A stretch of DNA of 64,000 bases from Skermanella pratensis (GTDB taxonomy: Bacteria; Pseudomonadota; Alphaproteobacteria; Azospirillales; Azospirillaceae), in assembly GCF_008843145.1 (NCBI RefSeq), contig NZ_CP030265.1, positions 4,457,001 to 4,521,000 of the forward strand. Direction: 5' to 3'. A model generated the notes under the pieces. The model worked only from the letters and a program-made list of their open reading frames with translations, was not told the DNA's origin and made no database searches. The position numbers and the translations under genes were made by a program. Numbering within the stretch: the stretch's first letter is position 1; every line of letters starts with the position of its first letter. This document shows, one piece after another, positions 1,348 to 23,478 of the stretch.

Positions 1348-2963
1348 CGGCCCGGTCCCCCGACCGGCCGGAGGTGATCGTCGCTGCTCGGGAGCGTGAA
1401 CCGGAAGACCGCGCCCTGCGGGACATTGTCGGTCGCCCAGAGCCTCCCGCCCCCAGCCTCGATGATCAATCTGCAGAACATCAGCCCCATGCCCATTCCG
1501 TCGGGTTTCGTCGTGAAGAACGGCTCGAAGATCCTGGCCCGGTGCTCCGGATCGATGCCGGGTCCGGAATCCTCCACGGATACCGCGATTTCCCCCGGGT
1601 CGTGCATCCGGGAGGTGATCCGCAGCACACGCGGCCGGCCTGTCACGGAGCACATGGCGTCGATCGCGTTCGCGACCAGGTTGGACAATACCTGCTGAAG
1701 CTGGATCGGGTTGCCGGTCACGGTCGGCAGTCCAGGTTCCAGGTCCGTTTCGACGGATATGCGGCCGAGCCGGGCATCGTCCTGCCCGCGCCGCAGAACA
1801 TCGTCGATCAGATGGTTGACGTCCAGCGGCACGCGATCGCGGGCATCCTTCTTGAACATCGTCCGGATGCTTTCGATCACGGTGCCGGCGCGATGGCCGT
1901 CGCTCACGATGCGATTCAGCGCCGCCCGGGCCTCCGCAATGTCCGGGTCCTTCTTTTCGAGCCAGCGGAGCCCGGCACCCGCATTCGTGACCATGCTCGC
2001 CAGGGGCTGGTTGATCTCGTGGGCGATCAGGGCCGACAAGGCCTCCATCGCGGTAAGCCGCGTCGCGCGCGCGCGGCGCTCAGCGGAAACCGAGCGGGCG
2101 ACCCTTGCATAGAGGGTCGTCGACTCCGAAAGCAGGACGAGCAGGACCATGCTGGCGGAAGCCAGCCCGTAGGACCGCCCTCCCCACCACCCCACGCTCA
2201 GGCGGATTCCGGCGCTGATGTAGGAGAGCAGGATGATCTCGATAAGCAGCGTGCAGATCACGACCATCAGCCAGAGGTCTAGCACCGATCGCCGGCGGAC
2301 GAACAGGACGGCGAGCGCCGCCAGGTAGAGAACCACCGCCGTGCCCGGAACATACTGCCATGCATCGGTGACGTTCCTCGCATTCCGCATGAAGGTCGGC
2401 AACGAATCGTCGTTGGCCAGGATCACCCAGGTCAGGCCGCAGGCCGCGGCGACCGCGCCGGCGACGCTTCCGGCGATCGCGCCCCGTACCGAGCCGCGAG
2501 ACCCGCGAACCGGCGCCCCGCCATCCTTCAGCAGCGCGTAGGCGAGCACGAAAAGGGGAAATCCCAGGCGGCGCAGGGCGGCGATCGACGCGGTGACCTG
2601 CAGCCCCGCGTCCAGGCCGAACACCTCGAACACGCCTGGAAAAGTAAGCGTCCACGGGATCACCATCAGGCCTGAGAAGAGATAGCCGATCGCCAGGACT
2701 AGGACGGCTCGCGACTGCTGGACCGAGAACAGCGCCAGCAGCAGGGCCGAGGTTATCAGCTCGATCAGCAGTATCGCGGCCCCATAGGCCGGCAGCAGGA
2801 TCTCGGTGCCGGCCAGCGGGATACGCGCGAACGGCGCCGTGACCAGCAGTTCGGCGAGCAGGACCACGAGCACGCAGACGGCAAGCCGCTCCTGGTTCCG
2901 GGTCGGCGGTGATGTCGAAAGCAGGAACGGAGGGTCGCCCTGCACGCGCCTCGGTGATCTCAC
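1344..2963 (-). CDS. Membrane sensor histidine kinase with MASE4-like N-terminal domain
   Basis: A 539-residue kinase starting at GTG 2963 behind a GGGGAG ribosome site. Residues about 25-285 form roughly eight hydrophobic segments resembling the MASE4-type integral membrane sensor region, with no PAS or periplasmic domain. The dimerisation/phospho-acceptor helix carries His315 in LIAHEINQPL, a sequence typical of the FixL/NodV-related group. The ATP-binding domain has the N box NLVANAIDAM, the G1 box DSGPGID, FEPFFTTK and GMGMGL. It ends in a four-base overlap with the FixJ-type regulator gene, which is its expected partner. The stimulus is unknown. Confidence 0.88.
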   Translation of the reverse strand: MRSPRRVQGDPPFLLSTSPPTRNQERLAVCVLVVLLAELLVTAPFARIPLAGTEILLPAYGAAILLIELITSALLLALFSVQQSRAVLVLAIGYLFSGLMVIPWTLTFPGVFEVFGLDAGLQVTASIAALRRLGFPLFVLAYALLKDGGAPVRGSRGSVRGAIAGSVAGAVAAACGLTWVILANDDSLPTFMRNARNVTDAWQYVPGTAVVLYLAALAVLFVRRRSVLDLWLMVVICTLLIEIILLSYISAGIRLSVGWWGGRSYGLASASMVLLVLLSESTTLYARVARSVSAERRARATRLTAMEALSALIAHEINQPLASMVTNAGAGLRWLEKKDPDIAEARAALNRIVSDGHRAGTVIESIRTMFKKDARDRVPLDVNHLIDDVLRRGQDDARLGRISVETDLEPGLPTVTGNPIQLQQVLSNLVANAIDAMCSVTGRPRVLRITSRMHDPGEIAVSVEDSGPGIDPEHRARIFEPFFTTKPDGMGMGLMFCRLIIEAGGGRLWATDNVPQGAVFRFTLPSSDDHLRPVGGPGR

Positions 2964-3117
2964 GCGCTTCTCCCCAATCTGCCCTCCCGCGGACCGCTGG
3001 CCGCCCTCCGGCCCGCAGGCGGAGGTTTGCAGCGAAAATCAGCCGAACGCAACAGAACGCCCCTTGCGGACCGGTGCCGCGGAGGGGGCAAGCTGGCGCT
3101 GCTGGGCGGCGAGGTTT

Positions 3118-3338
3118 TCCGCACCCATGCCTTCGAATTCGCCTGTTCCCGGAACAACTACGACACCCACGACCAGCTTCGAGGTTACTTCGCCGACTTC
3201 TTCACCGCCTACAACTTCGCCCGCCGGCTCAGGGACCTGAAGGGCCTCACCCCCTATGAGTGCATCTGATAGGCATGGACAAGGGAGCCGCAACGGTTCG
3301 ACCCCGATCCGCTACGTCAAATGCCGAGACTGAACATC
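3118..3338 (+). pseudogene. IS481-family transposase, 3' remnant
   Basis: This is the end of an IS481-type transposase. Residues such as FFTAYNFARRLRDLKGLTPY match the family's C-terminal signature, and the same reading frame continues as WTREPQRFDPDPLRQMPRLN, the usual last residues of the family. The frame is interrupted by two consecutive stop codons, TGA and TAG, at 3267-3272, exactly where functional members have Cys-Lys. The catalytic DDE core is absent and the 5' part cannot be recognised upstream of about 3118. It lies between the two-component group and the polysaccharide locus and marks an old insertion boundary. Confidence 0.7.
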
Positions 3339-3519
3339 TGGCAGAGGCGAACTGGACCCAAGACGGTCCTGCATACGATTCTCTATCCTGAACACAGATT
3401 TGGTATTGCTTCTTTCGCGCATCTAGGAACGAGGTCAGCGGCGGATCAACTTCGCCCAGTCGCATCCGTTCGGATGGCTCGCGCTTTCGAGACCGGTCTC
3501 CTCGTTCCTGGGCGAAAAC

Positions 3520-4923
3520 ATGAAACCGGCCAATCTCAAGATCCACATCCTGATGACGTTCATTGCATGCCATATGCTGTTCGGCTACGGTTTCATGCAG
3601 GTGAGGCTGCCACCAGGTAACGGCATACCCCTCGCCGAGCTTTTGCTGGCGGTACTTATCTTGACGGTGAACCACTTCACCGTGCTATCGCGTCTGGGCA
3701 GGCTGGCACTCCTGGCGCCGCTCGGGATCTGGTGGGGGTACGGGCTAACCCGTGCGGTAATGGGCTTCCTGGAGCATGGGATCTGGGCATTCCGGGACGC
3801 GTCGCAGGTCATCGAATCCATGTTCCTCATCCTGGCCTTCGCCTTGACGGCCAACCAGGAACGCATGGAACTGGTCCTGAAATGGATCGCTGTCACCCTT
3901 ATGGTCGCCACGGCCTACCGCTTGATGACGCCGCTCGCCGATACGCTGGCGGAGATGGGGCCGCAACTGACCGGCGGATCGGGACAGACCGTCTCGCTGC
4001 TGTTCTCCTTCACGCGGGAGCAGGGCGGGATGATCCTAATATGGGGGGCGGTCTTCCTGCTGCTGTTCCGGAACCATTTCCGGGCGCCCGCGGCAGTGAT
4101 CGACATCCTGTCGGGAGGCATCCTGATCTTCGCGATCGTTGTGCTGCACACCAGGACGGTCTATCTGCAGATCCTTGGCGTCCTGGTACTGCTGTTCCTG
4201 ACCCAGCGGAAAAGCCTCTACGGCGCCGCCCGTTGGTGGCCGATACTCGCGATCGCGGGGGCTGTCCCGCTGCTTCTGGGCTTCCAACTGGAAACTCGTT
4301 TCGGCGAGCGGCTCAGCCTGGACTTTTTCGTCAACCACTTCATGAGCATGTTCGGGTCCGCGAAGGATGTGGCGGTGGAGGCTGCGGCCGAAGGGGTATC
4401 CATGCGGCTTGGCTGGTGGGCGCACATTCTCGAAAGGCTGGTCAGCAGCCCCGGGACCCTGCTCTTCGGCCTTGGATACGGCATGCCGCTGGTGGAGTTC
4501 GGATATGCGCCTGTTGGCGCGGAAATGTCCGTCGACGTCCGCGAACCCCACAATTCCTACATGTCGGTCGTGGCGAGGCTCGGCCTCGTCGGTTTCGTTG
4601 CATGGATCTGGATGCATACGCAGATGATCCGCGTCTGGTGGCTCTCGATGCAGGCGACAAAGGCCATGGGCTGGCATGTATGGCGCCAGCGCCTGATCCT
4701 GTGCATGGCATTCTTCCTTATGGTGTGGATCCTCGCCCTGGGTGAGGATGGGCTCGAAAAGCCCTTTATCATCATCCCCTACTATTTCCTATGGGGGATC
4801 GTGCTGCGGTTCGCCTATTCCCTGGAGATTGCCGGCCTTCTCAGCGCCACTCCAGCCGTGAGCCGCATCGGGAATGCCGCCGGTTCCGTGCTGCCGCTGC
4901 ATGGTGCGGTGCGCCAGAGGTAA
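3520..4923 (+). CDS. O-antigen ligase / Wzy-type polysaccharide polymerase family membrane protein
   Basis: A 467-residue protein with about ten to twelve membrane segments. A large loop near residues 270-360 contains EPHNSYMSVVARLGLVG, the HN-S/Y signature of the Wzy_C (O-antigen ligase/polymerase) domain. Such proteins join or polymerise undecaprenyl-linked repeat units at the periplasmic face of the inner membrane. It is the first gene of the plus-strand polysaccharide locus, followed by an AT-rich gap. Its position beside a WbaP/ExoY-type transferase, flippase and Wzc homologue favours polymerase over ligase, but sequence alone does not separate these roles. Start taken at ATG 3520, just before the first membrane helix. 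Confidence 0.82.
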   Translation: MKPANLKIHILMTFIACHMLFGYGFMQVRLPPGNGIPLAELLLAVLILTVNHFTVLSRLGRLALLAPLGIWWGYGLTRAVMGFLEHGIWAFRDASQVIESMFLILAFALTANQERMELVLKWIAVTLMVATAYRLMTPLADTLAEMGPQLTGGSGQTVSLLFSFTREQGGMILIWGAVFLLLFRNHFRAPAAVIDILSGGILIFAIVVLHTRTVYLQILGVLVLLFLTQRKSLYGAARWWPILAIAGAVPLLLGFQLETRFGERLSLDFFVNHFMSMFGSAKDVAVEAAAEGVSMRLGWWAHILERLVSSPGTLLFGLGYGMPLVEFGYAPVGAEMSVDVREPHNSYMSVVARLGLVGFVAWIWMHTQMIRVWWLSMQATKAMGWHVWRQRLILCMAFFLMVWILALGEDGLEKPFIIIPYYFLWGIVLRFAYSLEIAGLLSATPAVSRIGNAAGSVLPLHGAVRQR

Positions 4924-5733
4924 GGTGTTTGGCTACTCCATTGGACATCCGGCGATCCAGGGTTCCCGGCCCCTCCCACTGCGCCGGAACATTGATAACA
5001 TCATTAGCAGAAAATTAGGTGCTTCAGACTGAAATTCTCAGGCTGCAGGAGTAACTTCCAGAACACTCATAGCGCTGACAAGTTATTATGTCATTTACAT
5101 TATAGAATTAAACATTGTTTATATAATTTTTACTTAGTTTTTATTCAAAATACCAAGTTTGGTAGTCTGGGTCGGTATTAAAATGTGTTAACTGGCAAAA
5201 CACTGAGTTCAAAATACTTGATTGATCTCGATGTTTACTATGACAAAATCCTGAATATACTCTATGACTGGCTCTCCCGTTTATAGGCGTTCATATCATC
5301 AGTATAAAGCAGCCCTTCGCTCCTCATGCTATTGGGTCATGGATACCACTTGCATGCAGCCGGCCTCGGCGGCGGCCCAGGCGAATACAATACTCCGGTA
5401 TGATATACCATCGAGCGTGACGGAAATCTTTTTCCAATGGCATAATAGTTTTGGATTGTGAAAACGATCTTTTCTTTTCCGGAGGTCCAGACCGTGTAAA
5501 TCTCCCCGCCAAGTGCTGTGCAAAACTCAAAAGAAGGTAGATGAGTGTTGATAAAATTCTAGCACCTTGTATGGAGCCAGCGCCTGGATTGCTTATCTTG
5601 ACAATAAATCAACCAAAAAGGACGCTCTTCGACAGTCATTTCTCATTTATCGTATTTGCCTTCGTACGTCGCACCACTATACCGCGCGGCCGGCAAAATC
5701 GGTCGATTTCCGCAGTGAGATATGGAGTAGTAA
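4924..5733. other. AT-rich intergenic region upstream of the aminotransferase gene
   Basis: About 810 bases with no convincing gene. Composition drops sharply to AT-rich between about 5020 and 5260 and again around 5440-5640, in contrast to the GC-rich genes on both sides. Short open frames here (for example near 5264-5461) have no recognisable product and no good ribosome site. The region most likely holds promoter and regulatory sequence for the genes starting at 5734; no individual box can be assigned with confidence. Confidence 0.45.
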
Positions 5734-7005
5734 ATGGACACAACGGACATCCAAGAAAGCGTCCCAGTCAATGATGTCCCTGCTGCGGTACTTTCAGTTG
5801 ATAGTAAATTGCCCGGGAATGTCGAAACGGCTCCCATGCTGCCCGCCATTCCCAATCACCGTGTTTGTCTGACGGGAGGCGAGACGGCGAGCTTGTCCAG
5901 CGTCGCCGCAGGCGCTATCGAAACCGATGGACCCGCAGCCGCCCGGTGCCTCACCGCGTTGCGGAACTCCCTCGGCATCCGCCAAGCCATCTTGACCCCA
6001 TCCTGCACGGCCGCGCTGGAGGTGGCAATGCGCATTAGTGGGATCGGGCTGGGCGACGAGGTGATAATGCCGTCCTACACCTTCTGCTCGACGGCCAATG
6101 CCGTCATCCTTGCAGGGGGCATTCCGGTATTTGTAGATATCCGGTCCGACACGCTGACCATCGACGAGGACCTGATCGAGCAGGCCATCACGTCGCGCAC
6201 TAAGGCGATCTGCGCAGTCCACTATGCGGGCGTCTCGTCGGACATGGATCGCATCACCGCCCTCGCGCAGCGGCACGGCATCACCATGATCGAGGATGCG
6301 GCGCAGGCCGTAGGGTCCTTCTACCGGAGCCGGGCACTGGGCAGCATCGGTGATCTGGGAGCGTTCAGCTTCCACCACACCAAGAACATCACCTCGGGCG
6401 AGGGCGGCGCCCTCTTGGTCAACAATCCGGATTTCGAGGACCGCGCCCAGCTCTATAAGGATAAGGGAACCAACCGGCGCCAGTTCTTCATGGGTCAGGT
6501 GAGAAAATACACCTGGGTCACGCTCGGATCCTCGGCGACGATGAGCGAGGCTGCGGCTGCGGTTCTGGCCCCCCAACTTGAAATGCTCGACAGCATCACG
6601 CAACGGCGTGGTTGCCTCTACCAGAATTATCTTTCGCACCTGGCTCCTCTGGCCGACGAGGGGTGGCTTCGCCTACCTGTAATCCCGGAAGACCAGCGCA
6701 GCAATTTCCATTTCTTCCACGTCATGTTACCAACGTCCGATGTCCGTACCCAGTTGATAGCCTGCCTCAAGCGACAGGGCATCCAGGCGACGACCCATTT
6801 CGTGCCGCTGCATTCCGCCCCCATGGGCGTGCGGCACTGCAGGACGCCCATGCCGCTTCCGGTGACCCAAAGGGCGGCTGATTGCCTTCTCCGACTACCG
6901 CTCTACACGGACATGACCAGTTGCGAGCAGTTGCGCGTGATAGAGGCGGTGACCGACTTCTTCGCAGCCCAGACGCAGTCATGGTCAGCCATGCCGGCCG
7001 AGTGA
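5734..7005 (+). CDS. DegT/DnrJ/EryC1/StrS aminotransferase, WecE/RffA-like
   Basis: A 423-residue PLP-dependent sugar aminotransferase. The PLP lysine is Lys217 in FHHTKNITSGEGGA, very close to the motif of WecE/RffA, which makes dTDP-4-amino-4,6-dideoxygalactose from the 4-keto sugar. PSCTAALEVAMR (about 89-100) and EDAAQAVGS (about 187-195) are the PLP-phosphate and ring-stacking segments. An unusual N-terminal stretch of about 40 residues precedes the catalytic fold, so the true start may be further in. It supplies an amino-deoxy sugar for the polysaccharide made by this locus. The family is secure; the WecE substrate is inferred from motif similarity. Confidence 0.85.
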   Translation: MDTTDIQESVPVNDVPAAVLSVDSKLPGNVETAPMLPAIPNHRVCLTGGETASLSSVAAGAIETDGPAAARCLTALRNSLGIRQAILTPSCTAALEVAMRISGIGLGDEVIMPSYTFCSTANAVILAGGIPVFVDIRSDTLTIDEDLIEQAITSRTKAICAVHYAGVSSDMDRITALAQRHGITMIEDAAQAVGSFYRSRALGSIGDLGAFSFHHTKNITSGEGGALLVNNPDFEDRAQLYKDKGTNRRQFFMGQVRKYTWVTLGSSATMSEAAAAVLAPQLEMLDSITQRRGCLYQNYLSHLAPLADEGWLRLPVIPEDQRSNFHFFHVMLPTSDVRTQLIACLKRQGIQATTHFVPLHSAPMGVRHCRTPMPLPVTQRAADCLLRLPLYTDMTSCEQLRVIEAVTDFFAAQTQSWSAMPAE

Positions 7006-7664
7006 CGGGAAGCCGCGTTGGGTGGTTGACCCCATCGGAAGTTCGGGCTGGGCACCCTCTGGGTACTTAGCCCGTCCCTTGAGGGTGGGGAGGTCACAGT
7101 GGCATAGACTCCACAACGTCACGCCGTCGCCGGCCTGATCAATGATTTTGGAGATTCATATTTCGCGCCGCACGAATACTCTTCGCTCAGGTATCAATGC
7201 ATTGCCCACTGAAAAAAAGTATTCGTAACCATAAGTACACACCCAAAAGTTGGTTGAAAAGCCGAATACCAATCAGAATAGCGAAAGGTATAAGCAATAA
7301 TATAAGCGTATCATATACAATCATTGCATTATCAAGAACTGAAAAATTACCCATCTGTGTATTGTTAACTCTGGTGGCTAGATACTTTCTCTAAAAGTAT
7401 TAGTAATTATTCCTATAAACAAATAACCTATCTCTAATGGGACGTCGACTAAACTTGCTGCACATGCTAAGTCATTTCCAATCGAAATCATTCAACATGC
7501 GATGAAGGGTGCTGCTAAAGTGAGATTCATCGTGAAGCAATGATGAAATCATCCCGTTGAGAGTATTTTCTTATGCCATCGCTAGAGAAACCGGCAAGGT
7601 TGATGGTTCTTGTCGGCCGGCGAGGTCTTTTCAGATATTCTCCCTTGATCAGGAGTGGCTTGGT
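7006..7664. other. Intergenic region, AT-rich in its second half
   Basis: About 660 bases between the aminotransferase and the sugar transferase. The first 140 bases are GC-rich and contain a short imperfect hairpin around 7046-7080 (GGGCTGG...) that might end the upstream transcript. From about 7150 to 7560 the sequence is clearly AT-rich, like the gap at 5.0-5.7 kb, and resembles a promoter region. A TTG-started extension of the next gene from 7557 is possible but lacks a ribosome site. Confidence 0.4.
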
Positions 7665-16064: not shown

Positions 16065-16360
16065 ATGGGTCAGGGCTATTCGTCTGATTTGCGTGTCCGG
16101 ATCATCGGAGCGATCGAGAGCGGGAACTCGTGTCGAGCGGCGGCACGGCGGTTCGGCGTCAGCCCGAGCACGAGCATCCGGCTGGCGTAGCGCAAGGCGG
16201 GGGCCGGCTCGCTGGAGCCGGCGCGCCATGCCGATCTCCTGATCGGCTGGGTGAAGGCGAAGGGCGACATCACCATGCCCGAACTGGCAGCCAAACTGTA
16301 AGCCGTCCGCGGTGTTGCGTATTCCGGCGAAAGCGCCCTGGCGTTTCGGTTCAAACCGCC
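16065..16360 (+). pseudogene. IS630-type transposase, 5' remnant
   Basis: The frame from ATG 16065 (preceded by GGAGG) encodes MGQGYSSDLRVRIIGAIES and then a helix-turn-helix (CRAAARRFGVSPSTS), the DNA-binding start of IS630-family transposases. A TAG at about 16188 interrupts it, another stop follows near 16298, and no DDE catalytic domain follows. It is therefore a decayed 5' end. It forms the left edge of the mobile-element block that follows the polysaccharide locus. Confidence 0.7.
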
Positions 16361-16465: not shown

Positions 16466-16602
16466 TCACGATGGCGTTGCAGGCTTGGTTGTTTTCTGGT
16501 CTGCCGCCCGTACCCGGCGCATGGACTCGCCCGTGAGCTCGATGCGCAATGCCCGGTGAACGACGCGGTCGAGGATCGCGTCGGCGTAAGTGGCATCCCC
16601 GA
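16466..16602 (-). pseudogene. istB: istB, 3' fragment (C-terminal 45 codons)
   Basis: Read on the minus strand this encodes [18 protein letters not shown] and then [10 protein letters not shown], the standard C-terminus of the IS21 helper ATPase IstB, and it ends at TGA 16466-16468. Its missing 5' part lies at 19203-19850 in the same orientation. Together the two pieces give about 255 residues, the normal IstB length. The DNA between them (about 16603-19215) holds a serine recombinase gene, so the gene was split by insertion rather than by decay. Confidence 0.85.
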
Positions 16603-17109
16603 TTATCACAGAATGCCGCTGTTTTCAAACGGCTGATCACTGAAGTCTCGATCACCGAGCGACGCCATTCTCTTTTCGGTCAGCGGCTTGATGTCGCTCC
16701 CGAAGCGTCGTGCCGCGGTCCGGACTGGGTAACGGTGATCCTGCCCGATGGACGGCGTCGGCACGTGCGGCGGGCAGCGACCGACCTTGTTCCGGCCTCG
16801 ACCGATGCACACGCGGTTTCCGATCGCGGCGATGCGCGCATTTCCGTGCGAACCCTGCTGCCCCTGGCCGAATGTCTGCGGGCGCTGTTGAGGATTTCCA
16901 GAGAGGAAGTCCCCGATGACCAGTCTCGCTCCCGCACCTCGGACCAGCCATCGATCCATTCCGCCACCGGACTGTCCGACGGCGTCCCGAACGCTGTGGT
17001 TGACCCTGCCCCCGGACGTGCGGCGGAGGATCGCCAGGGAATACGCCGCCATGATGGTCCGGATACGTGCGGCAAGTCACCCCGCAACTCCGGAGATGCC
17101 TCATGCTGA
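16549..17109 (+). CDS. DUF5372-like small protein of the recombinase element (start uncertain)
   Basis: The supported part is about 16613-16920, encoding [26 protein letters not shown] and [17 protein letters not shown]. This resembles the DUF5372-type proteins often found just upstream of serine recombinase genes in such elements; the assignment is from memory of the pattern. No start codon exists between the element boundary (about 16603) and the conserved region, so translation would have to begin in the flanking istB DNA (ATG 16549) or the start was lost. The frame runs on to 17109 through the next small frame, which suggests either a lost stop or a frameshift. Function unknown. Confidence 0.45.
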
Positions 17110-17128
17110 TGGCGACGACCCCCGGTGA
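16916..17128 (+). CDS. Small hypothetical protein upstream of the serine recombinase
   Basis: A 70-residue frame with GAGGAAG placed nine bases before ATG 16916. It ends 25 bases inside the recombinase gene, an arrangement typical of translational coupling. The centre, [20 protein letters not shown], looks like an amphipathic helix and resembles short proteins that accompany related recombinases. It overlaps the 3' extension of the preceding frame, so only one of the two is likely to be translated here. I do not recognise a function. Confidence 0.42.
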   Translation: MTSLAPAPRTSHRSIPPPDCPTASRTLWLTLPPDVRRRIAREYAAMMVRIRAASHPATPEMPHADGDDPR

Positions 17129-19208
17129 GGACAGAGTCACCACGGCGCATCGCGCCAAGCTGGCCTACATCTATGTGCGACAGTCATCGGTCGCCCAGGT
17201 TCGGCAGAACCAGGAGAGCACCGAGTTGCAGTATCGCCTGGTCGATCGCGCTCTTCAGCTGGGCTGGCCCCGGGAGCGGGTCCAGGTGATCGACGAGGAT
17301 CTCGGGCGCTCGGGCGCGACCAGCGACGGCCGGCACGGCTTCCAGCGGCTGATCGCCGAGATCGGTCTCGGGCACGCCGGCCTCGTACTCAGCCTGGATG
17401 CGTCGCGTCTGGCCCGGAACAACAGGGACTGGTACCAGCTGGTGGAACTGTGCGCCCTGTTCGGCGTGCTGATCGCCGACGGCGAGCGCCTGTTCGATCC
17501 GGGCGCCTATCACGACCGGCTGCTGCTCGGGCTGTCCGGGATCATGAGCGAGGCGGAACTGCACCAGATCAAGGTTCGCCTGCATCAGGGCGAGCGTCAG
17601 AAGGCGGCTCGCGGGGAGTTGCGCCAAGCCTTGCCCGCCGGTCTGGCACAGGAACCGGGCGGTGCGATCATCCTCAATCCCGATGAGGAAGTGCAGGCGC
17701 GTCTCCATCTGGTCTTTCGCCTGTTTCATGACCTGGGAAGCGCCCACGCCGTTGTGCGATCCCTGCGGCGCGCCGGACTGGACCTGCCGATGCGGCCGTT
17801 GCGGGGGCCCGCGCCGCACACGGTGGTGTGGCAGCCGGCCGACGGCAGCCGGATGCGCAGCATCCTGAAGAACCCGGGGTATGCTGGGGCCTACGTCTAC
17901 GGCCGGCACTGGCAGGATCCCGGTCGCCGGCGCTCCGGATCGCCGCGTAGCGGGACCGTGACGCGGGCTCCGGAGGATTGGCCGGTATGCCTGATCGACG
18001 CACACCCCGGCTACATCAGTTGGGAGGAGTTCATGGCCAACCGCAAACGGCTGTCGGACAACATCAACCGCTATGAAGCCAACCACCGGGGGGTGCCCCG
18101 CAAGGGCATGGCCCTGCTCCAGGGCATTGCCGTCTGCGGACGCTGCGGACGCCGGATGACCCTGGGGTATTCCGGCCCGCACGGCGAATACCCGGTCTAT
18201 CGCTGCTGCGCCGACAAGAGCCAGCGGGGCGATCCAACCTGCCAGGAAGTCCGCGCCCTGCCGCTCGATGCCGAGGTCGAGCGCCTGGTCCTGGCGGCGC
18301 TGGCGCCTGATCAGGTGGCGTTGGCTGTCGCCGCCCTGGGCGAGATCGAAGAGGAGGCCCGCCTGCTGGAGCGGCAATGGGCGCTCAAGCGCGAGCGCGC
18401 CCGGTATGAGGCGGAACGCGCCCGCCGCCAGTACGACACGGTCGAACCGGAGAACCGGTTGGTCGCCCGGTCGCTGGAGCGGGGCTGGGAGGAACGACTA
18501 CGCGCCGTCGAACAGGTCGAGGAGGAATACGAACGCTGGCGCCGGGAACAGCCGCTGGCACTGGACGATGCCGGCCGGGCCGAGATCCTGGCGCTCGGCG
18601 AGTGCGTCGATGACGTTTGGCACGCGCCGACGACGACCGCGGCGGATCGCAAACGCATCGTGCGCCTGGTCCTGCAAGAAGCCATCCTGGACCAGAAGCG
18701 GTCGCCCGGTCGCGTCCTGGTCCGCCTGGTCTGGCAGACCGGAGCGGTCAGCGATCACGATTTTCGGCGCACGGTGCACGCCTATGACAATTATGCCCAG
18801 GTCGAGGAACTGGAGAGCCGCGTGCGCGCCCTCAACGCGGCGGGCCGGATGGACGCCGAAATCGCTGCCGTCCTCAATGCCGAGGGTTTTCTGACGCCGC
18901 GCGGCACGACATTCGAACACGGGCTGATTCACATGCTGCGCAAGCGGTGGAGTATCCCGACCGTCAAGATCAACGGGATGGCTCCCAATCCGATGCGCTG
19001 GCCGGATGGATCCTACTCGGTACAGGGGGCCGCCGAGGCCCTCGGGATCACCGGCCAGACCATCTTCAAATGGTTGAAGAGGGGATGGCTTTCCGGCCAT
19101 CAACTTGCCAAGGGCATGCCCTGGCAGATCACGCTCGATGACGAGCGGATCCCGGAACTTCGGGCCCTGGTTCGACACACCAGTCCATCACGGAGGAAGG
19201 CATCATGA
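17103..19208 (+). CDS. Large serine recombinase (resolvase/invertase N-terminus, recombinase domain, zinc ribbon, C-terminal helix-turn-helix)
   Basis: A 701-residue site-specific recombinase. The catalytic domain begins at AYIYVRQSS with the nucleophilic Ser near residue 28; the conserved Arg-rich helix SLDASRLARNNRDW follows. The recombinase domain spans roughly 165-290, a zinc ribbon follows with CGRCGRR (about 347-353) and CC/C ligands downstream, then a coiled coil (about 405-500). The C-terminus has an excisionase-like helix-turn-helix (VQGAAEALGITGQTIFKWLK), an uncommon addition. ATG 17103 has GGAG seven bases upstream. It very likely catalysed insertion of its own element into istB, whose halves flank it. 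Confidence 0.9.
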   Translation: MLMATTPGEDRVTTAHRAKLAYIYVRQSSVAQVRQNQESTELQYRLVDRALQLGWPRERVQVIDEDLGRSGATSDGRHGFQRLIAEIGLGHAGLVLSLDASRLARNNRDWYQLVELCALFGVLIADGERLFDPGAYHDRLLLGLSGIMSEAELHQIKVRLHQGERQKAARGELRQALPAGLAQEPGGAIILNPDEEVQARLHLVFRLFHDLGSAHAVVRSLRRAGLDLPMRPLRGPAPHTVVWQPADGSRMRSILKNPGYAGAYVYGRHWQDPGRRRSGSPRSGTVTRAPEDWPVCLIDAHPGYISWEEFMANRKRLSDNINRYEANHRGVPRKGMALLQGIAVCGRCGRRMTLGYSGPHGEYPVYRCCADKSQRGDPTCQEVRALPLDAEVERLVLAALAPDQVALAVAALGEIEEEARLLERQWALKRERARYEAERARRQYDTVEPENRLVARSLERGWEERLRAVEQVEEEYERWRREQPLALDDAGRAEILALGECVDDVWHAPTTTAADRKRIVRLVLQEAILDQKRSPGRVLVRLVWQTGAVSDHDFRRTVHAYDNYAQVEELESRVRALNAAGRMDAEIAAVLNAEGFLTPRGTTFEHGLIHMLRKRWSIPTVKINGMAPNPMRWPDGSYSVQGAAEALGITGQTIFKWLKRGWLSGHQLAKGMPWQITLDDERIPELRALVRHTSPSRRKAS

Positions 19209-19850
19209 AGTCGTTGGGTCTCCGATCGACCGGTGCCAGTTCGCCACGGGGATCTGGGTTGCCAGCACCGTGGCGGCACGGTCATGCCGGTCGTCGATCA
19301 CTTCCATCAGGTCGAGCCGCTGAGCCGCGGTGAGCTCAGTCATGGCCCAGTCATCGATGATCAGCACCTCCAGGCGGGCCAGGCGGCGCAGGACACGGGC
19401 TAGCGAGCCATCGAGCCGGGCGGTCGCCAGATCATCGAGCAGGCGCGTCAGCCGGGTGTAGAAGACGCCGTAACCTTCCCGAGCCGCCTGGTTGCCCAGC
19501 GCACAGGCCAGGAACGTCTTGCCGATGCCGGTTGGGCCGGTCACCAGCAGCGGCTGGTGCTCGCGAACCCAGCGACAACTCGCCAGATCGCGGATCAGCG
19601 TGCGATCAAGGCCGCGCGGCGTGCGCCAGTCGAGATCCTCCAGGCAGGCGGTCTGGCGCAGCCGGGCCCGCTTCAGCCGGCTGGCCAGGGCGGTGTTGGC
19701 TCGCTCCGCCGTCTCGCGCTCGACCAGCAGGGCAAGCTGGTCGTCGAAGCTGAGCTGGTTGCGTTCGGGCTGGCGCTCGAGATCTTCCAGGCCGCGCGCC
19801 ATGCCGTACAGCCGAAGCCGGCGCAGAGCCTCGTGGGTCGGATGCTTCAT
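19203..19850 (-). pseudogene. istB: istB, 5' part of the IS21-type helper ATPase gene
   Basis: Encodes the first about 211 residues of IstB: an N-terminal helical domain, Walker A VTGPTGIGKT, Walker B LIIDDWAM and the sensor segment ATQIPVANWHRSIGD. The protein then departs from the family with a short PTTS tail ending at 19203, because the recombinase element begins there. The missing C-terminus is at 16466-16602. It starts 19 bases after the end of istA, the normal istA-istB spacing. The ATPase would normally load IstA onto target DNA; the split copy should be inactive. Confidence 0.88.
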
Positions 19851-19868
19851 GCTCTCGGGTCTCCTTGT

Positions 19869-21022
19869 TCAGTTCCGGTAGTAAGAGGGGCCGTGCAGGT
19901 TGGCGTGCTCGCCCAAGCCGTCGGATGAGGCTGGCGGCGGACCGCCGGTGGTGAGCCAGCGCTGGACGTAGCGCCAGGATCGGACGTTGGCTTCCAGGGC
20001 GGCCTGACAGGCTTGTTCCAGCCGGTCGGCGCCATGAGCGCCGCCGAGCCGGAGCAGGCCGAGACCGGCACGCACCGCCTGCTCGCGATGTTCCGCCGCC
20101 GCCAAGATGCGCTCGAACAGCAGGGTTGCCGCCGAGCCGACCGCGGCGAACTCGCCCTGAAGGTGTTCCGGCGTGTAGCGGGCCACCGCGCGATGGGAGG
20201 CCGGCTGGTGAGCTTCCAGCGTCGTCCGGCTGCCGGCCGAAGCCCGGGGATGGCAGGCGATGCGCCGCCCACGTAGGAAGATGCTGATCAGGGCGGCGGT
20301 CGCGTGGACATCGACCGTCTTGCCGATCGCGGTGTAGGGCACCGAGTAGGCGGCGCCGTCGATCACGACATGGTAATCGGGCGCCAGCTTGTAGCGGCTC
20401 CAGGTTCCCGGAACGAAGCGGTCCGCCGGCAGCGGCCGCAGATGGGCACGCTCCCGCTCGGCCAGGATCCGCGCCCGGCAGCTGTCCTTGTCGCCGCTCA
20501 GCGGTGCTGCGTTCAGCATGGCCAGACGCTCCCGGATCGCGGCGTTGGCGGCGTCGAGGCTGACGAAGACGGTGTCGCGGATCGGCGCCAGCACGCGCCG
20601 CTCGACCTGCAGAACGGCATTCTCGACTGCTGCCTTGTCCCTCGGCTGACGCACCCGCGTCGGGACGACGGCGACCCGGTAGTGCTGGGCAAAGTCGTGG
20701 TAGCCGGGGTTGACGGTGGGATCGTAGAACGAGGCGTGGCTGACGCCGACCTTGAGATTGTCGGGCACCAGGCGGGCCGGAACACCGCCCAGGTGCTCCA
20801 GCAGCCGGACGTGGGAGGCCAGCCAGTCCTCCGACCGCTGCGTCCAGGTCGCTTCGGCGTAGATGTAGCCGGAGTACGGCAGGCAGGCGACGAAGATCTG
20901 CGCCGGGCGGAAATCGGCGCCGATCCCGATCATCAGGGTCATGCCGGCGTAATCGACTTCCAGCGCGTCGCCCGGCAGATGGTCGCGCCGCATCCGGGGA
21001 ACCGCCCGGGCGGCCTGCCAGT
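19869..21022 (-). pseudogene. istA: istA, IS21-family transposase lacking its N-terminal domain
   Basis: Encodes the catalytic half of IstA. Family homology begins at about WQAARAVPRMRRDHLPGDA and runs to the end. The DDE residues are visible as Asp in VDYAGM, Asp in VPDNLKVGV and Glu in KAAVENAVLQVERR. The first about 120 residues, including the helix-turn-helix, are missing: at 21022 the sequence changes to TGTAAGTGCCGGG, which looks like the end of another IS21-type element. An open frame extends to 21089 only by reading into that element. It pairs with istB downstream. Confidence 0.82.
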
Positions 21023-21437
21023 TGTAAGTGCCGGGTGAATACTCCTCAGATGTGGCGGATGAACATTCCCCAGGCTGACGCAACGGCACGGTTCCGGAGC
21101 AGACGCCCTGGAGCCGTGTAGCCGCCCCTGGCTCATAATCCCCTCAGTCGATTGAGGGAGAGCGTGGGTGGTCACACTTGGGGAACTCGTCATGATTCTT
21201 GATCTCGCCCGCCAGGGTTTAAGCGTGTCGGCAATCGCGCGCCGAACCGGCCTGGATCGCAAGACCATCCGCAAGTACATCGCCAAGGGTCTGGAACCGC
21301 CCGCCTACACGCCACGCCCGCCCCGGCAGACTCTTGTCGGTCCCTTTGAACCTTATCTGCGGGAGCGTCTCCAGACGTTCCCGGAACTCAGCGCCCGGCG
21401 CCTGCTCCGGGATATCCGCACCCTCGGCTATCAGGGC
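21023..21437 (+). mobile_element. Left end of a second IS21-type element, truncated by IS66
   Basis: Begins at TGTAAGTGCCGGG (IS21 elements start with TG) and contains two similar blocks, TGAATACTCC and TGAACATTCC, like the multiple internal end repeats of IS21 elements. It carries the first 90 codons of istA on the plus strand, opposite to the istA it interrupts. It is cut at about 21437 where the IS66 transposase gene ends abruptly. Confidence 0.6.
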
Positions 21438-21449
21438 GGCAGCCCGTAG
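21168..21449 (+). pseudogene. istA: istA, N-terminal fragment of a second IS21-type transposase
   Basis: About 93 residues beginning MVTLGELVMILDLARQG and containing the helix-turn-helix SAIARRTGLDRKTIRKYI and then FPELSARRLLRDIRTLGYQGG, the usual IstA N-terminus. It ends at an artificial stop where IS66 sequence starts. It is on the opposite strand to, and not the missing piece of, the truncated istA at 19869-21022. No catalytic domain is present. Confidence 0.8.
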
Positions 21450-22543
21450 ATCCGCCGCTCGATGCGGTACAGCGCGGCAATCTGCTTCACGCCCTCGCCA
21501 GCAACCGGCGAGCCCTTGGCGCGCACCAGATCGACCAGCTTGCGGCGGGCGTGGCCAAGGCAGCCGGCCTCAACCATGGCACCACCCCGGTACAGGTGAT
21601 CGAAGCCGGAGAAGGCATCGGCCTGCAGGGTGCCCTTGAAGCCAGCCAGGTGCTGGCCCGGATGCTTGCCAGCGCGTCCGGCGGAGAAGCGGAACACCGC
21701 GATCGACGGTTCGATGCCGCCGCGCGGCCGGGTGTCGTCGGCATAGACCCAGAAGCGGCCGTCGTGAGTGCCGGAACGGCCCGGATTGAGAACGGTCACC
21801 GGCGTGTCGTCGGCATGGATCTTGGTCCGCCGGAGCAGCAGCTCGAGCAAGCGGTCGGCAATCGGCGCCAGATCGCGCGCGGCCGCCTCGACCCAGCCGT
21901 ACAGGGTGGTGGTGGCGAGCAGCACGCCGAACCGGGCGTAGTGCGCCGCCTGCCGGTGCAGCGGCATGTGGTTGAGGTACTTGGCGATGACGACCTGGGC
22001 GATGGTGCCGGCGGTGGGCAGGCCACGCTCGATCGGCCGGTCGTCAGGAGCCGGAGCCTGGGCCAGTTCACCGCAGGTCCTGCAGGCGAACTTGGGCCGG
22101 ACCGTGACATGAACCTCGGCATGGGCCGGCACGAGGTGGAGCTGTTTGCTCTCGTCCTGGCCGATCCGGGCCATCTCCCGGCTGCAGCACGGGCACTGCG
22201 TGCTGGCGGGCAGGATCTCGCGGGTCACCCGCGGCAGACTGTCGGGCAGAGGACGCCGACCCCCGCGGCTGCGGCGGTGCCGTCCGGTCGTGTCCTCGCC
22301 CGAGGGTTCCGCCTCGCCAGGATCGGCCGGGGCAGGTGCTGCCGTGTCGAGCAGGCTGAACTGATCCGGGCTCATCTTCTCCGAGGAACGGCCGAAGATC
22401 CTGTGGCGCAGAACCGCCAGGAACGTCTCCAGTCGTTCGTTCTCGCGCGTCAGCACCGCAACCCGACGTTCCAGCACGGCGATCCGCTCGAGCGGATCAT
22501 CCTTCGGGTTCGCAGGATTGCTGTCGCGCTGGTCATCTTTCAT
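21431..22543 (-). pseudogene. tnpC: IS66-family transposase TnpC, 3' truncated
   Basis: The first 370 of about 520 residues of an IS66 transposase. Seen in order: a leucine-rich coiled coil (ERRVAVLTRENERL), FGRSSEKM, the zinc-binding CPCC...C-C region, and the DDE core with HADDTPV and LQADAFSGFD. Translation ends within ALYRIERRIYGLPP, where family members continue to the third catalytic residue and the C-terminal dimer domain. The break coincides with the istA fragment of the second IS21 element. It belongs with tnpB and tnpA just upstream. Confidence 0.87.
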
Positions 22544-22620
22544 GTAAAGAAAGTATCCGCGCCGGCCCTCCTGGTAAACAGCGGCAGAAGCAGTAACATA
22601 GAAGTAATGCAGGCTTCTGT

Positions 22621-22974
22621 TCAGACGATAAGCAGGGGCTTCGCGATGGGTTTTGTCTTGGCTGATCGCCAGTCCAGACCGTCAACGAGCAGCGACATCT
22701 GGGCACGGCTGATCGTCACGATGCCATCCGCCGGGCTTGGCCAGATGAACTTTCCCTCGGTCAGGCGTTTCTGCATCAGCAGAAAGCCGGTGGTGTCGTA
22801 CATTAGAACCTTGATCGTGTGCGCCGAACGCCCTCGGAAAACGAAAAGATGGCCACTGAAGGGATCCTGGAGCAGCACTGTCTGAATCTGTGCGGCAAGG
22901 CCGTCGATGCCACGGCGCAGGTCGGTCCGACCCGCCGCCAGATAGACACGCACGCCATCCGGCAGCCCGATCAC
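22621..22974 (-). CDS. tnpB: IS66 accessory protein TnpB
   Basis: A 117-residue TnpB (IS66 Orf2). It starts with GLPDGVRVYLAAGRTDLRRG and contains FVFRGRSAHTIKVLMYD, both family signatures. The ATG overlaps the stop of tnpA in an ATGA arrangement, the normal coupling in IS66 elements. Its role in transposition is required but not biochemically defined. The C-terminal sequence after DWRSAKTK is short and normal for the family. It is intact, although the partner TnpC is truncated. Confidence 0.88.
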   Translation of the reverse strand: MIGLPDGVRVYLAAGRTDLRRGIDGLAAQIQTVLLQDPFSGHLFVFRGRSAHTIKVLMYDTTGFLLMQKRLTEGKFIWPSPADGIVTISRAQMSLLVDGLDWRSAKTKPIAKPLLIV

Positions 22975-23336
22975 GAACGCCTCTCGACGACGTCGAGCAG
23001 CCGGCCCAGGGTCACGGCGTCGAAGCCACGCCCAACCCGAAGGACGCTGCCCCCCTTCAGAACCAGTTCGATCCGGTCATCCCACGGCTCCGAAACACTC
23101 ACCGCCGGTTCGGCGACATGGACCGCCAGAAACGTCGCCACGGTCTCCGATCCGGCCGATGATGTCAGGGCATCGGCGGCCTGCGCTTTGAGCCGGGAGT
23201 TCCAGTAGCCCAACGTGCCTGCCTTCAGCCCATGACGCTCGCTGTACAGCCGCAGCGACAGGCCGCTGCTCTTCCAGCCCGCCACGTGATCCCGCCAGAA
23301 CTGCTCACGGTCTCCCAAGTGCCCGCCATCGGCCAT
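22971..23336 (-). CDS. tnpA: IS66 accessory protein TnpA
   Basis: About 121 residues of the IS66 Orf1 type, with a helix-turn-helix-like start (REQFWRDHVAGWKSSGLSL, YSERHGLKAGTLGYW) and a C-terminal strand-helix part (VLRVGRGFDAVTLGRLLDVVE) typical of the family. ATG 23336 is preferred because GGAGG lies five bases before it; ATG 23348 is possible. It is the first gene of the tnpA-tnpB-tnpC set. Confidence 0.83.
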   Translation of the reverse strand: MADGGHLGDREQFWRDHVAGWKSSGLSLRLYSERHGLKAGTLGYWNSRLKAQAADALTSSAGSETVATFLAVHVAEPAVSVSEPWDDRIELVLKGGSVLRVGRGFDAVTLGRLLDVVERRS

Positions 23337-23478
23337 CGCAGCCTCCATCGATTTCCTGTCACCAGGAAAGCTCGGCTTCAACAGACCGGCGGAAAAGGTG
23401 CCTTCGTCGCTGGTTTACGGCCAAGCTGCAAAACCGGTCCCTTGCCACGTCCTTCTCCCCCACCTGTACCGGACAGGG

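Follow-up and report, generated by a model that had tools for sequence, protein, structure and literature searches.

A serine-recombinase element splits istB at a conserved codon

We analysed a stretch of 64,000 nucleotides from the genome of Skermanella pratensis (5.87 Mb, a single contig; NZ_CP030265.1, positions 4,457,001 to 4,521,000), referred to below as the window, in which all coordinates are given. It contains an insertion sequence of the IS21 family whose istB gene is interrupted by a 2.6 kb element encoding a large serine recombinase (LSR). The N-terminal part of istB (19219..19850, minus strand) matches positions 3-207 of 238 of IstB_IS21 (PF01695, E 2.4e-57) and runs through a GA dinucleotide that forms the first two bases of an Asp codon; the C-terminal part (16466..16597, minus strand) extends from the same GA to the stop codon at 16466 and rejoins in frame. 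Each part is counted with one copy of the shared dinucleotide. The open reading frame at 19203-19850 reaches a few codons into the element, the istB piece proper being 19850-19219. An initial annotation, made from the letters of the DNA, had described two same-strand istB halves around the element and had placed both junctions on conserved Ile-Gly-Asp codons. Both points were borne out: the joined halves give one open IstB frame of 253 amino acids, and the 2 bp common to the junctions (GA on the istB sense strand, TC on the plus strand) are the first two bases of the conserved Asp codon.

The inserted element (16598..19218, plus strand) measures 2,621 bp without the core copies and 2,623 bp with one, the core TC being found at 16596-16597 and again at 19219-19220. 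The left junction site (16576..16619) consists of an istB half-site, the core and the left arm of the element (CCCGATTATCACAG...), and the right junction site (19197..19242) of the right arm, the core and the other istB half-site; the recombinase stop codon falls within this right arm. Around the core, the two arms of the element are partly inverted repeats of each other, matching at 5-8 of 12 positions. Only three frames lie in the element, all on the plus strand, namely a DUF5372-like frame, a small frame and the recombinase, with no structural or packaging phage genes among them.

The LSR (17106..19208, plus strand) matches Resolvase (PF00239, E 8.5e-18), Recombinase (PF07508, E 2.5e-11) and Zn_ribbon_recom (PF13408, E 1.2e-8). 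Its length, previously given as 701 residues, is 700 amino acids from the ATG at 17106 or 713 if translation starts at the GTG at 17067. Residues Y23, R25 and S27 (YxRxS), which we take to be the nucleophile motif, are invariant across 12 recombinase sequences. The best relative of solved structure in the Protein Data Bank is the SPbeta integrase YokA (E 5.9e-16, residues 69-535), and the nearest named recombinase is that of Skermanella aerolata (95% identity, locus L026). Near the C-terminus lies an excisionase/MerR-like helix-turn-helix (19014..19115, plus strand) that is sub-threshold in the window copy (excise, TIGR01764: E 0.0028, 18 of 28.8 bits) and clear in relatives, where HTH_17 was matched by 10 and excise by 8 of 14 family members. 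A structural model of the whole recombinase is weak (pLDDT 70.5, pTM 0.35), and its match to an Xis protein (E 0.15) is suggestive only; that this helix-turn-helix acts in directionality is a guess.

Relatives occupy the same istB codon

Scanning genome contigs yielded 37 loci, to which loci from whole genomes and plasmids were added. The clade considered here comprises 35 distinct loci at which the recombinase is at least 55% identical and its 3' end is present. At 25 of these the flanks can be joined at the same Asp/Glu codon to give an open istB frame, with no gaps within 6 residues of the junction, as the initial annotation had anticipated, and chance juxtaposition of two istB fragments is thereby ruled out. 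Both istB halves were also seen at two further loci in the two-halves test described below (L019, whose core AA lay outside the search pattern, and L080, whose istB contains a stop), and six of the ten non-rejoining loci have no readable left end (L002, L021, L031, L035, L090, L094). Alignment of the junctions, proposed earlier as the way to define the core dinucleotide, yields GA on the istB sense strand. In each of the 26 attachment-site (att) pairs that could be reconstructed, the core coincides with the first two bases of a codon for Asp (23 pairs) or Glu (3 pairs); the corresponding elements are 2,551-2,636 bp long with one core copy (n = 26).

The interrupted genes themselves are diverse. 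IstB identity to that of the window is about 25-81% in other species or genomes, and the residues at the insertion site read IGD, FGD, FAD, FPD, FND or VGD; the diversity of the IstBs together with the differing site residues therefore indicates repeated insertion rather than one inherited event. An alternative would be a few original insertions followed by spread through host transposons, with broken-istB IS21 copies mobilised in trans, or through segmental duplication. It would account for a same-genome block that is 99.94% identical to window positions 17782-21022 and carries IS21 and the element together. Near-identical recombinases nevertheless sit in very different IstBs (those of Bradyrhizobium have end branches of at most 0.033), and sister recombinases occur in both orientations. 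Such secondary spread can run alongside repeated integration and as the sole process is already disfavoured; we regard it as very improbable. The duplicated block (L009, G000:C1:1980000-1990000, 1864-5103) spans part of the recombinase, the N-terminal part of istB and part of istA, and is truncated within the recombinase. At another locus (L037), about 0.9 kb with an IstB match (6225-6911) interrupts a relative of the recombinase (5001-7334), which indicates that these parasites are in turn hit by IS21.

Empty sites

Comparison with intact copies shows insertion without loss or duplication of target DNA, the 2-bp core being common to the left and right attachment sites (attL and attR). The joined istB DNA of the window aligns with intact istB copies of relatives at 78.5-79.3% identity over about 713 nt and through the junction, free of gaps in five (L093, L101, L105, L108, L109) and with one gap somewhere in a sixth (L091), and interrupted relatives (L090, L092, L094) end exactly at the junction when aligned to it. 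The closest empty site was found for L053, whose joined flanks match an intact IS21 of another species (L093) at 98.7% over 1,175 bp with 0 gaps; against copies from one more species the identity is 95.7-96.4%. Two other insertions in the wider family, in genes of IS701 and IS66, behaved alike. The pieces of the IS701 insertion L151, compared with four intact copies in the same genome (nearest upstream piece 99.1-100%, downstream 99.8-99.9%), overlap by exactly 3 nt, the GAG of the RWTIE motif, and those of the IS66 TnpC insertion L132, compared with L171, L172 and L179, by exactly 2 nt, GC. A clean empty site was thus obtained at four of the seven interrupted loci that were compared with intact copies (L053, the window, L151 and L132).

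Elements that are excised from sigK or fdxN exist in other bacteria, and the element could likewise be a regulatory device with which the host switches its transposon on and off. Precise in-frame rejoining would restore istB, and the recombinase has a weak similarity to the NCBIfam equivalog XisF of the fdxN element (57.2 of the 375 bits of its cut-off, which is missed). This reading would lead one to expect a fixed chromosomal locus or a conserved host gene, yet there is neither, and the flanking transposons differ by locus and include some on plasmids, so that we give it hardly any credence.

Core dinucleotide and orientation

In serine integrases a non-palindromic core fixes the orientation of insertion and a palindromic core does not. 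Within the IstB clade, 23 of the 26 att pairs have the element core TC and are inserted antisense to istB, whereas the remaining three (L079, L080, L083) have the core GA and are inserted in sense; L019, with the core AA, is likewise in sense, and its istB codon there starts with AA. Three changes are required on the recombinase tree to explain the sense rows, and starred branches force two of them. In the clade that targets IS66 TnpC the core is the palindrome GC, seen at the expected place in seven rows and also readable in L146, L149 and L150, and here six insertions are in sense and four antisense, the sister recombinases L149 and L150 having opposite orientations. A core AT or TC for this clade, taken from the junctions alone, was overturned by the intact copies, which show GC. 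The IS66 TnpB clade has the core GG: six sense rows (L136, L137, L138, L133b2, L154, L158) have the target GG of a Gly codon, L156 is antisense with the target CC of a Pro codon, as is L134 with CC, and L159 has a core AA with no TnpB piece upstream. The link between core and orientation is as predicted from LSR chemistry, being fixed by the core in the TC/GA clade and free in the GC clade.

Targets of the wider family

The initial annotation had suggested that the recombinase exploits a conserved site in a transposon gene. This holds for the IstB clade; across the family istB is not the sole target, and other clades use other genes. Relatives at 31-45% identity occupy other conserved motifs in mobile-element genes, namely IstB Walker A, IS66 TnpB, IS66 TnpC, IS701, IS3, IS91 and the group II intron reverse transcriptase. 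The motifs at the target sites are catalytic, and include the Glu of DDE transposases, Walker A, HUH and a reverse transcriptase block.

We examined these targets with a two-halves test that used trimmed references and asked for at least 25 bits per side and for pieces abutting at the element ends; 93 of 97 distinct records were testable, four being too short. The references came from two sources, open frames in the retrieved loci themselves (with each locus's own frames left out) and seeds from flanks already recognised, and the test therefore finds members of foreseen target families only. Near-copies (L051/L052, L137/L138, L142/L142b2) were counted separately. The flanks were abutting halves of one mobile-element gene at 58 of the 93 loci, compared with 0 of 174 cross-family flank pairings used as control. 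The passing loci comprise 30 in IstB (23 at the Asp codon, six at Walker A and one at a third site), ten in IS66 TnpC, eight in IS66 TnpB, four each in reverse transcriptase and IS3-type genes, and one each in IS91 and IS701. For loci scanned on both sides, the Pfam positions of the two halves agree as well: 1-78 and 79-205 of the reverse transcriptase (L144), 2-45 and 40-100 of TnpB (L136), 84-270 of the IS66 transposase followed by its C-terminal element (L133), and 2-54 and 51-67 of rve_3 (L148). At the IS5-type locus L087, DDE_Tnp_1 reaches position 164 on one side and DDE_Tnp_1_2 starts from 45 on the other. Two targets, IS630 (L125) and an IS2-like gene (L112), were assigned by reading, the latter also with a one-sided Pfam rve match. 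Loci at a third place in IstB (L126, genome G011) and a third place in TnpB (L161, G068) pass the two-halves test.

A number of observations weigh against a family dedicated to fixed sites in mobile-element genes. Thirty-five of the 93 loci fail the two-halves test; some are fragments and six have recognisable targets outside the references (L084, L087, L088, L123, L125, L148), but five remain unexplained (L010, L011, L041, L045, L060). A first, laxer version of the test, which passed 61 of 93 loci including two judged spurious (L017b2, L153), let through 12 of 118 control pairs and was dropped. Locus L153 is flanked by unrelated genes on its two sides, and three elements lie in or beside non-mobile genes (DUF1775 in L134, DUF6655 in L135 and peptidase M15 in L143, with the scan covering the downstream side). 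The two flanks of L136 belong to separate IS66 copies (71% and 99.9%), and L123 and L140 yielded no clean empty site on comparison with intact copies. Within the IstB clade, L036 and L038 gave no istB junction, so that flanks unrelated to istB, which the initial annotation had named as evidence to the contrary, occur at two of the 35 loci and not clade-wide; and elements that are otherwise near-identical differ in the left-arm base that follows the core.

The loci in non-mobile genes bear on a survivorship effect, in which promiscuous recombinases insert widely, insertions in host genes are purged, those in transposon genes survive, and the specificity is only apparent. Related TndX-like LSRs are indeed multi-targeting (PMC10083194). 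Survivorship would scatter sites over the gene, whereas all 25 rejoinable loci and all 26 att pairs of the IstB clade share one codon, and the sites of the other clades are also fixed. We consider this explanation improbable, although purging may still have shaped which attachment sites in target DNA (attB) were kept. With respect to the non-mobile loci themselves, L134 (G080) has a DUF1775 (ycnI-like) gene at its right junction whose FRGxxP codons agree with the TnpB target of IS66, spacing included, an apparent off-target insertion that argues for recognition of DNA, and the right junction of L135 has GG in place of GC.

Phylogeny and distribution

The recombinase tree (79 sequences; a quick tree with several long branches) places the 20 IstB-Asp rows on one side of a branch with support 100; they come from Pseudomonadota, Acidobacteriota and Chloroflexota. 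Each of the groups for Walker A, reverse transcriptase and IS3 FYN also forms a single side of a branch. Target labels require 28 changes on the tree against a mean of 58.5 after shuffling, a value as low being reached in 0 of 200 shuffles. Recombinase matches occur in 43 of 82 genomes of the order at E <= 1e-3 and in 12 of 398 genomes sampled from the phylum at E <= 1e-60, the S. pratensis genome included. On plasmids they were found in 533 of 72,556 records (397 with 80% coverage) and in phages in 74 of 50,697 records, none of which covers 80% of the protein; the element as a remnant of a phage integrase is ruled out on this basis. Genome G064 (L142 and others) carries five near-identical copies of the Walker A type, indicating recent activity.

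Proposed mechanism and biological meaning

We conclude that the insert is very probably a minimal site-specific integrative element whose LSR recombines its own attachment site (attP) with an attB inside istB. On the circular element, attP would consist of right end, core and left end, and would be paired with the conserved-motif DNA of a mobile-element gene; the recombinase would cut both at the core, in istB the GA of the conserved Asp codon, and rejoin them such that attL and attR hold one core each and nothing is lost or duplicated. Orientation would depend on which strand shows the core as TC and which as GA. This very recombinase probably does the cutting, a circular intermediate would form and excision would restore the transposon; the DUF5372-like frame, the small frame and the C-terminal helix-turn-helix may serve in directionality or DNA binding. 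Each insertion would disable a transposon copy while sparing the host. Spread may also ride on the transposon itself, because the second, 99.94% identical block holds IS21 and the element together.

The recombinase family as a whole has moved repeatedly to new attB sites, most of the resolved ones being short conserved motifs of mobile-element genes. Such targets (IS21, IS66, IS701, IS3, IS91 and group II introns) occur widely and in many copies, and the host can do without them, which may be the selective reason for their use; activity of the elements and their effect on the host are likewise inferred. More broadly, we think it likely that these elements constitute a separate class of cellular hyperparasites. 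These would be 2.4-2.6-kb serine-recombinase elements found in several bacterial phyla and attached at the codons of conserved motifs in mobile-element enzymes (transposase, transposition ATPase, accessory protein, HUH transposase and reverse transcriptase). Over evolution they would shift from motif to motif, with the core setting their orientation and with the recombinase fused to an excisionase-like domain, and they would spread both on transposons and at their cost, with the host spared.

If this is correct, there are site-specific integrase parasites dedicated to transposons and group II introns; by disabling single copies at the codons of conserved motifs, they might hold transposon load in check. 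Current annotation lists such elements only as "recombinase family protein" beside broken transposases. The clades would then form a natural experiment on change of target and orientation in serine integrases (a core that turns from TC to GA within one clade, a palindromic GC core in another, and moves from one gene to an unrelated one). They would also supply LSRs whose sites may vary widely in sequence, with an excisionase-like domain possibly built into some of these enzymes.

Relation to known systems

Phage large serine integrases (Bxb1, phiC31, A118, SPbeta YokA) share with the recombinase the domain order of Resolvase, Recombinase, zinc ribbon and long helices, and share with the element a 2-bp core, the lack of target duplication and a recombinase gene ending inside attP. 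The element differs from them in having no phage genes, in its attB sites within mobile-element genes and in the extra excisionase-like helix-turn-helix of its recombinase beyond residue 536. IS1111-type elements in the ends of Tn21 also target other mobile elements, at terminal repeats; they are alike in their site-specific parasitism of mobile DNA, whereas here the enzyme class is another and conserved coding motifs are targeted.

Helper-embedded phage-inducible chromosomal islands (PICIs) resemble the family in that integrase subclades each own one site and have repeatedly moved within the genes of another mobile element; they use tyrosine integrases, target prophage late genes and exploit the helper for mobilisation (PMC10111431), in contrast to the serine recombinases, the transposon and intron gene targets and the lack of any known helper dependence here. 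The TnpX/TndX and DUF4368 multi-targeting LSR clade also comprises transposon-like elements driven by serine recombinases; it uses many loose sites (PMC10083194), whereas here each clade has one fixed codon and the window recombinase has no match to DUF4368 at E up to 1. IS607-family serine transposases likewise mobilise small elements, and reportedly have an inverted domain order and little target specificity (PMC4058570), against the classical LSR domain order and strict site found here. No paper in the open literature searched gives an account of serine-recombinase elements that specialise in transposon genes; subscription journals, ISfinder and supplements lay outside this search, and a prior description is possible.

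Small frames of the element and surroundings of the IS21 copy

The recombinase domains and the small frame of the initial annotation were recovered, and its DUF5372 assignment fell below the Pfam cut-off (PF17342: E 7.6e-5, 23.1 against 25 bits). This DUF5372-like conserved frame (16621..16914, plus strand), given from a candidate start codon within the stop-to-stop frame 16570-17109, has 12 invariant columns in a 14-sequence alignment. Its model is modest (pLDDT 75, pTM 0.47) and suggests a small beta domain with a helix, with no fold match below E 0.027. At L085, DUF5372 and DUF6788 are annotated beside the recombinase, upstream of it, an observation that concerns the elements of all clades sampled; neither family is named in any paper of the open literature searched. 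The small frame (16916..17128, plus strand, 70 amino acids) overlaps both neighbouring frames and has no significant family match in Pfam and NCBIfam profile searches; several relatives carry frames of 71-78 amino acids at its place.

The host IS21 shows the tandem istA/istB arrangement, with IstB PF01695 and NF038214 above cut-off for the N-terminal part of istB and the main part of istA (19869..21089, minus strand) carrying the rve and Mu-transpos_C_2 domains. No IS21 terminal repeats were identified within the window by a short-match search. An IstA-like N-terminal piece, read by eye, lies at 21168-21449 (plus strand), on the strand opposite to the remaining istA, and the host IS21, including istA, looks rearranged near 21022-21168. 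Around it is a nest of insertion sequences, with remnants that read as IS66 (three frames) and as an IS630-like helix-turn-helix at 21431-23381 and 16066-16190.

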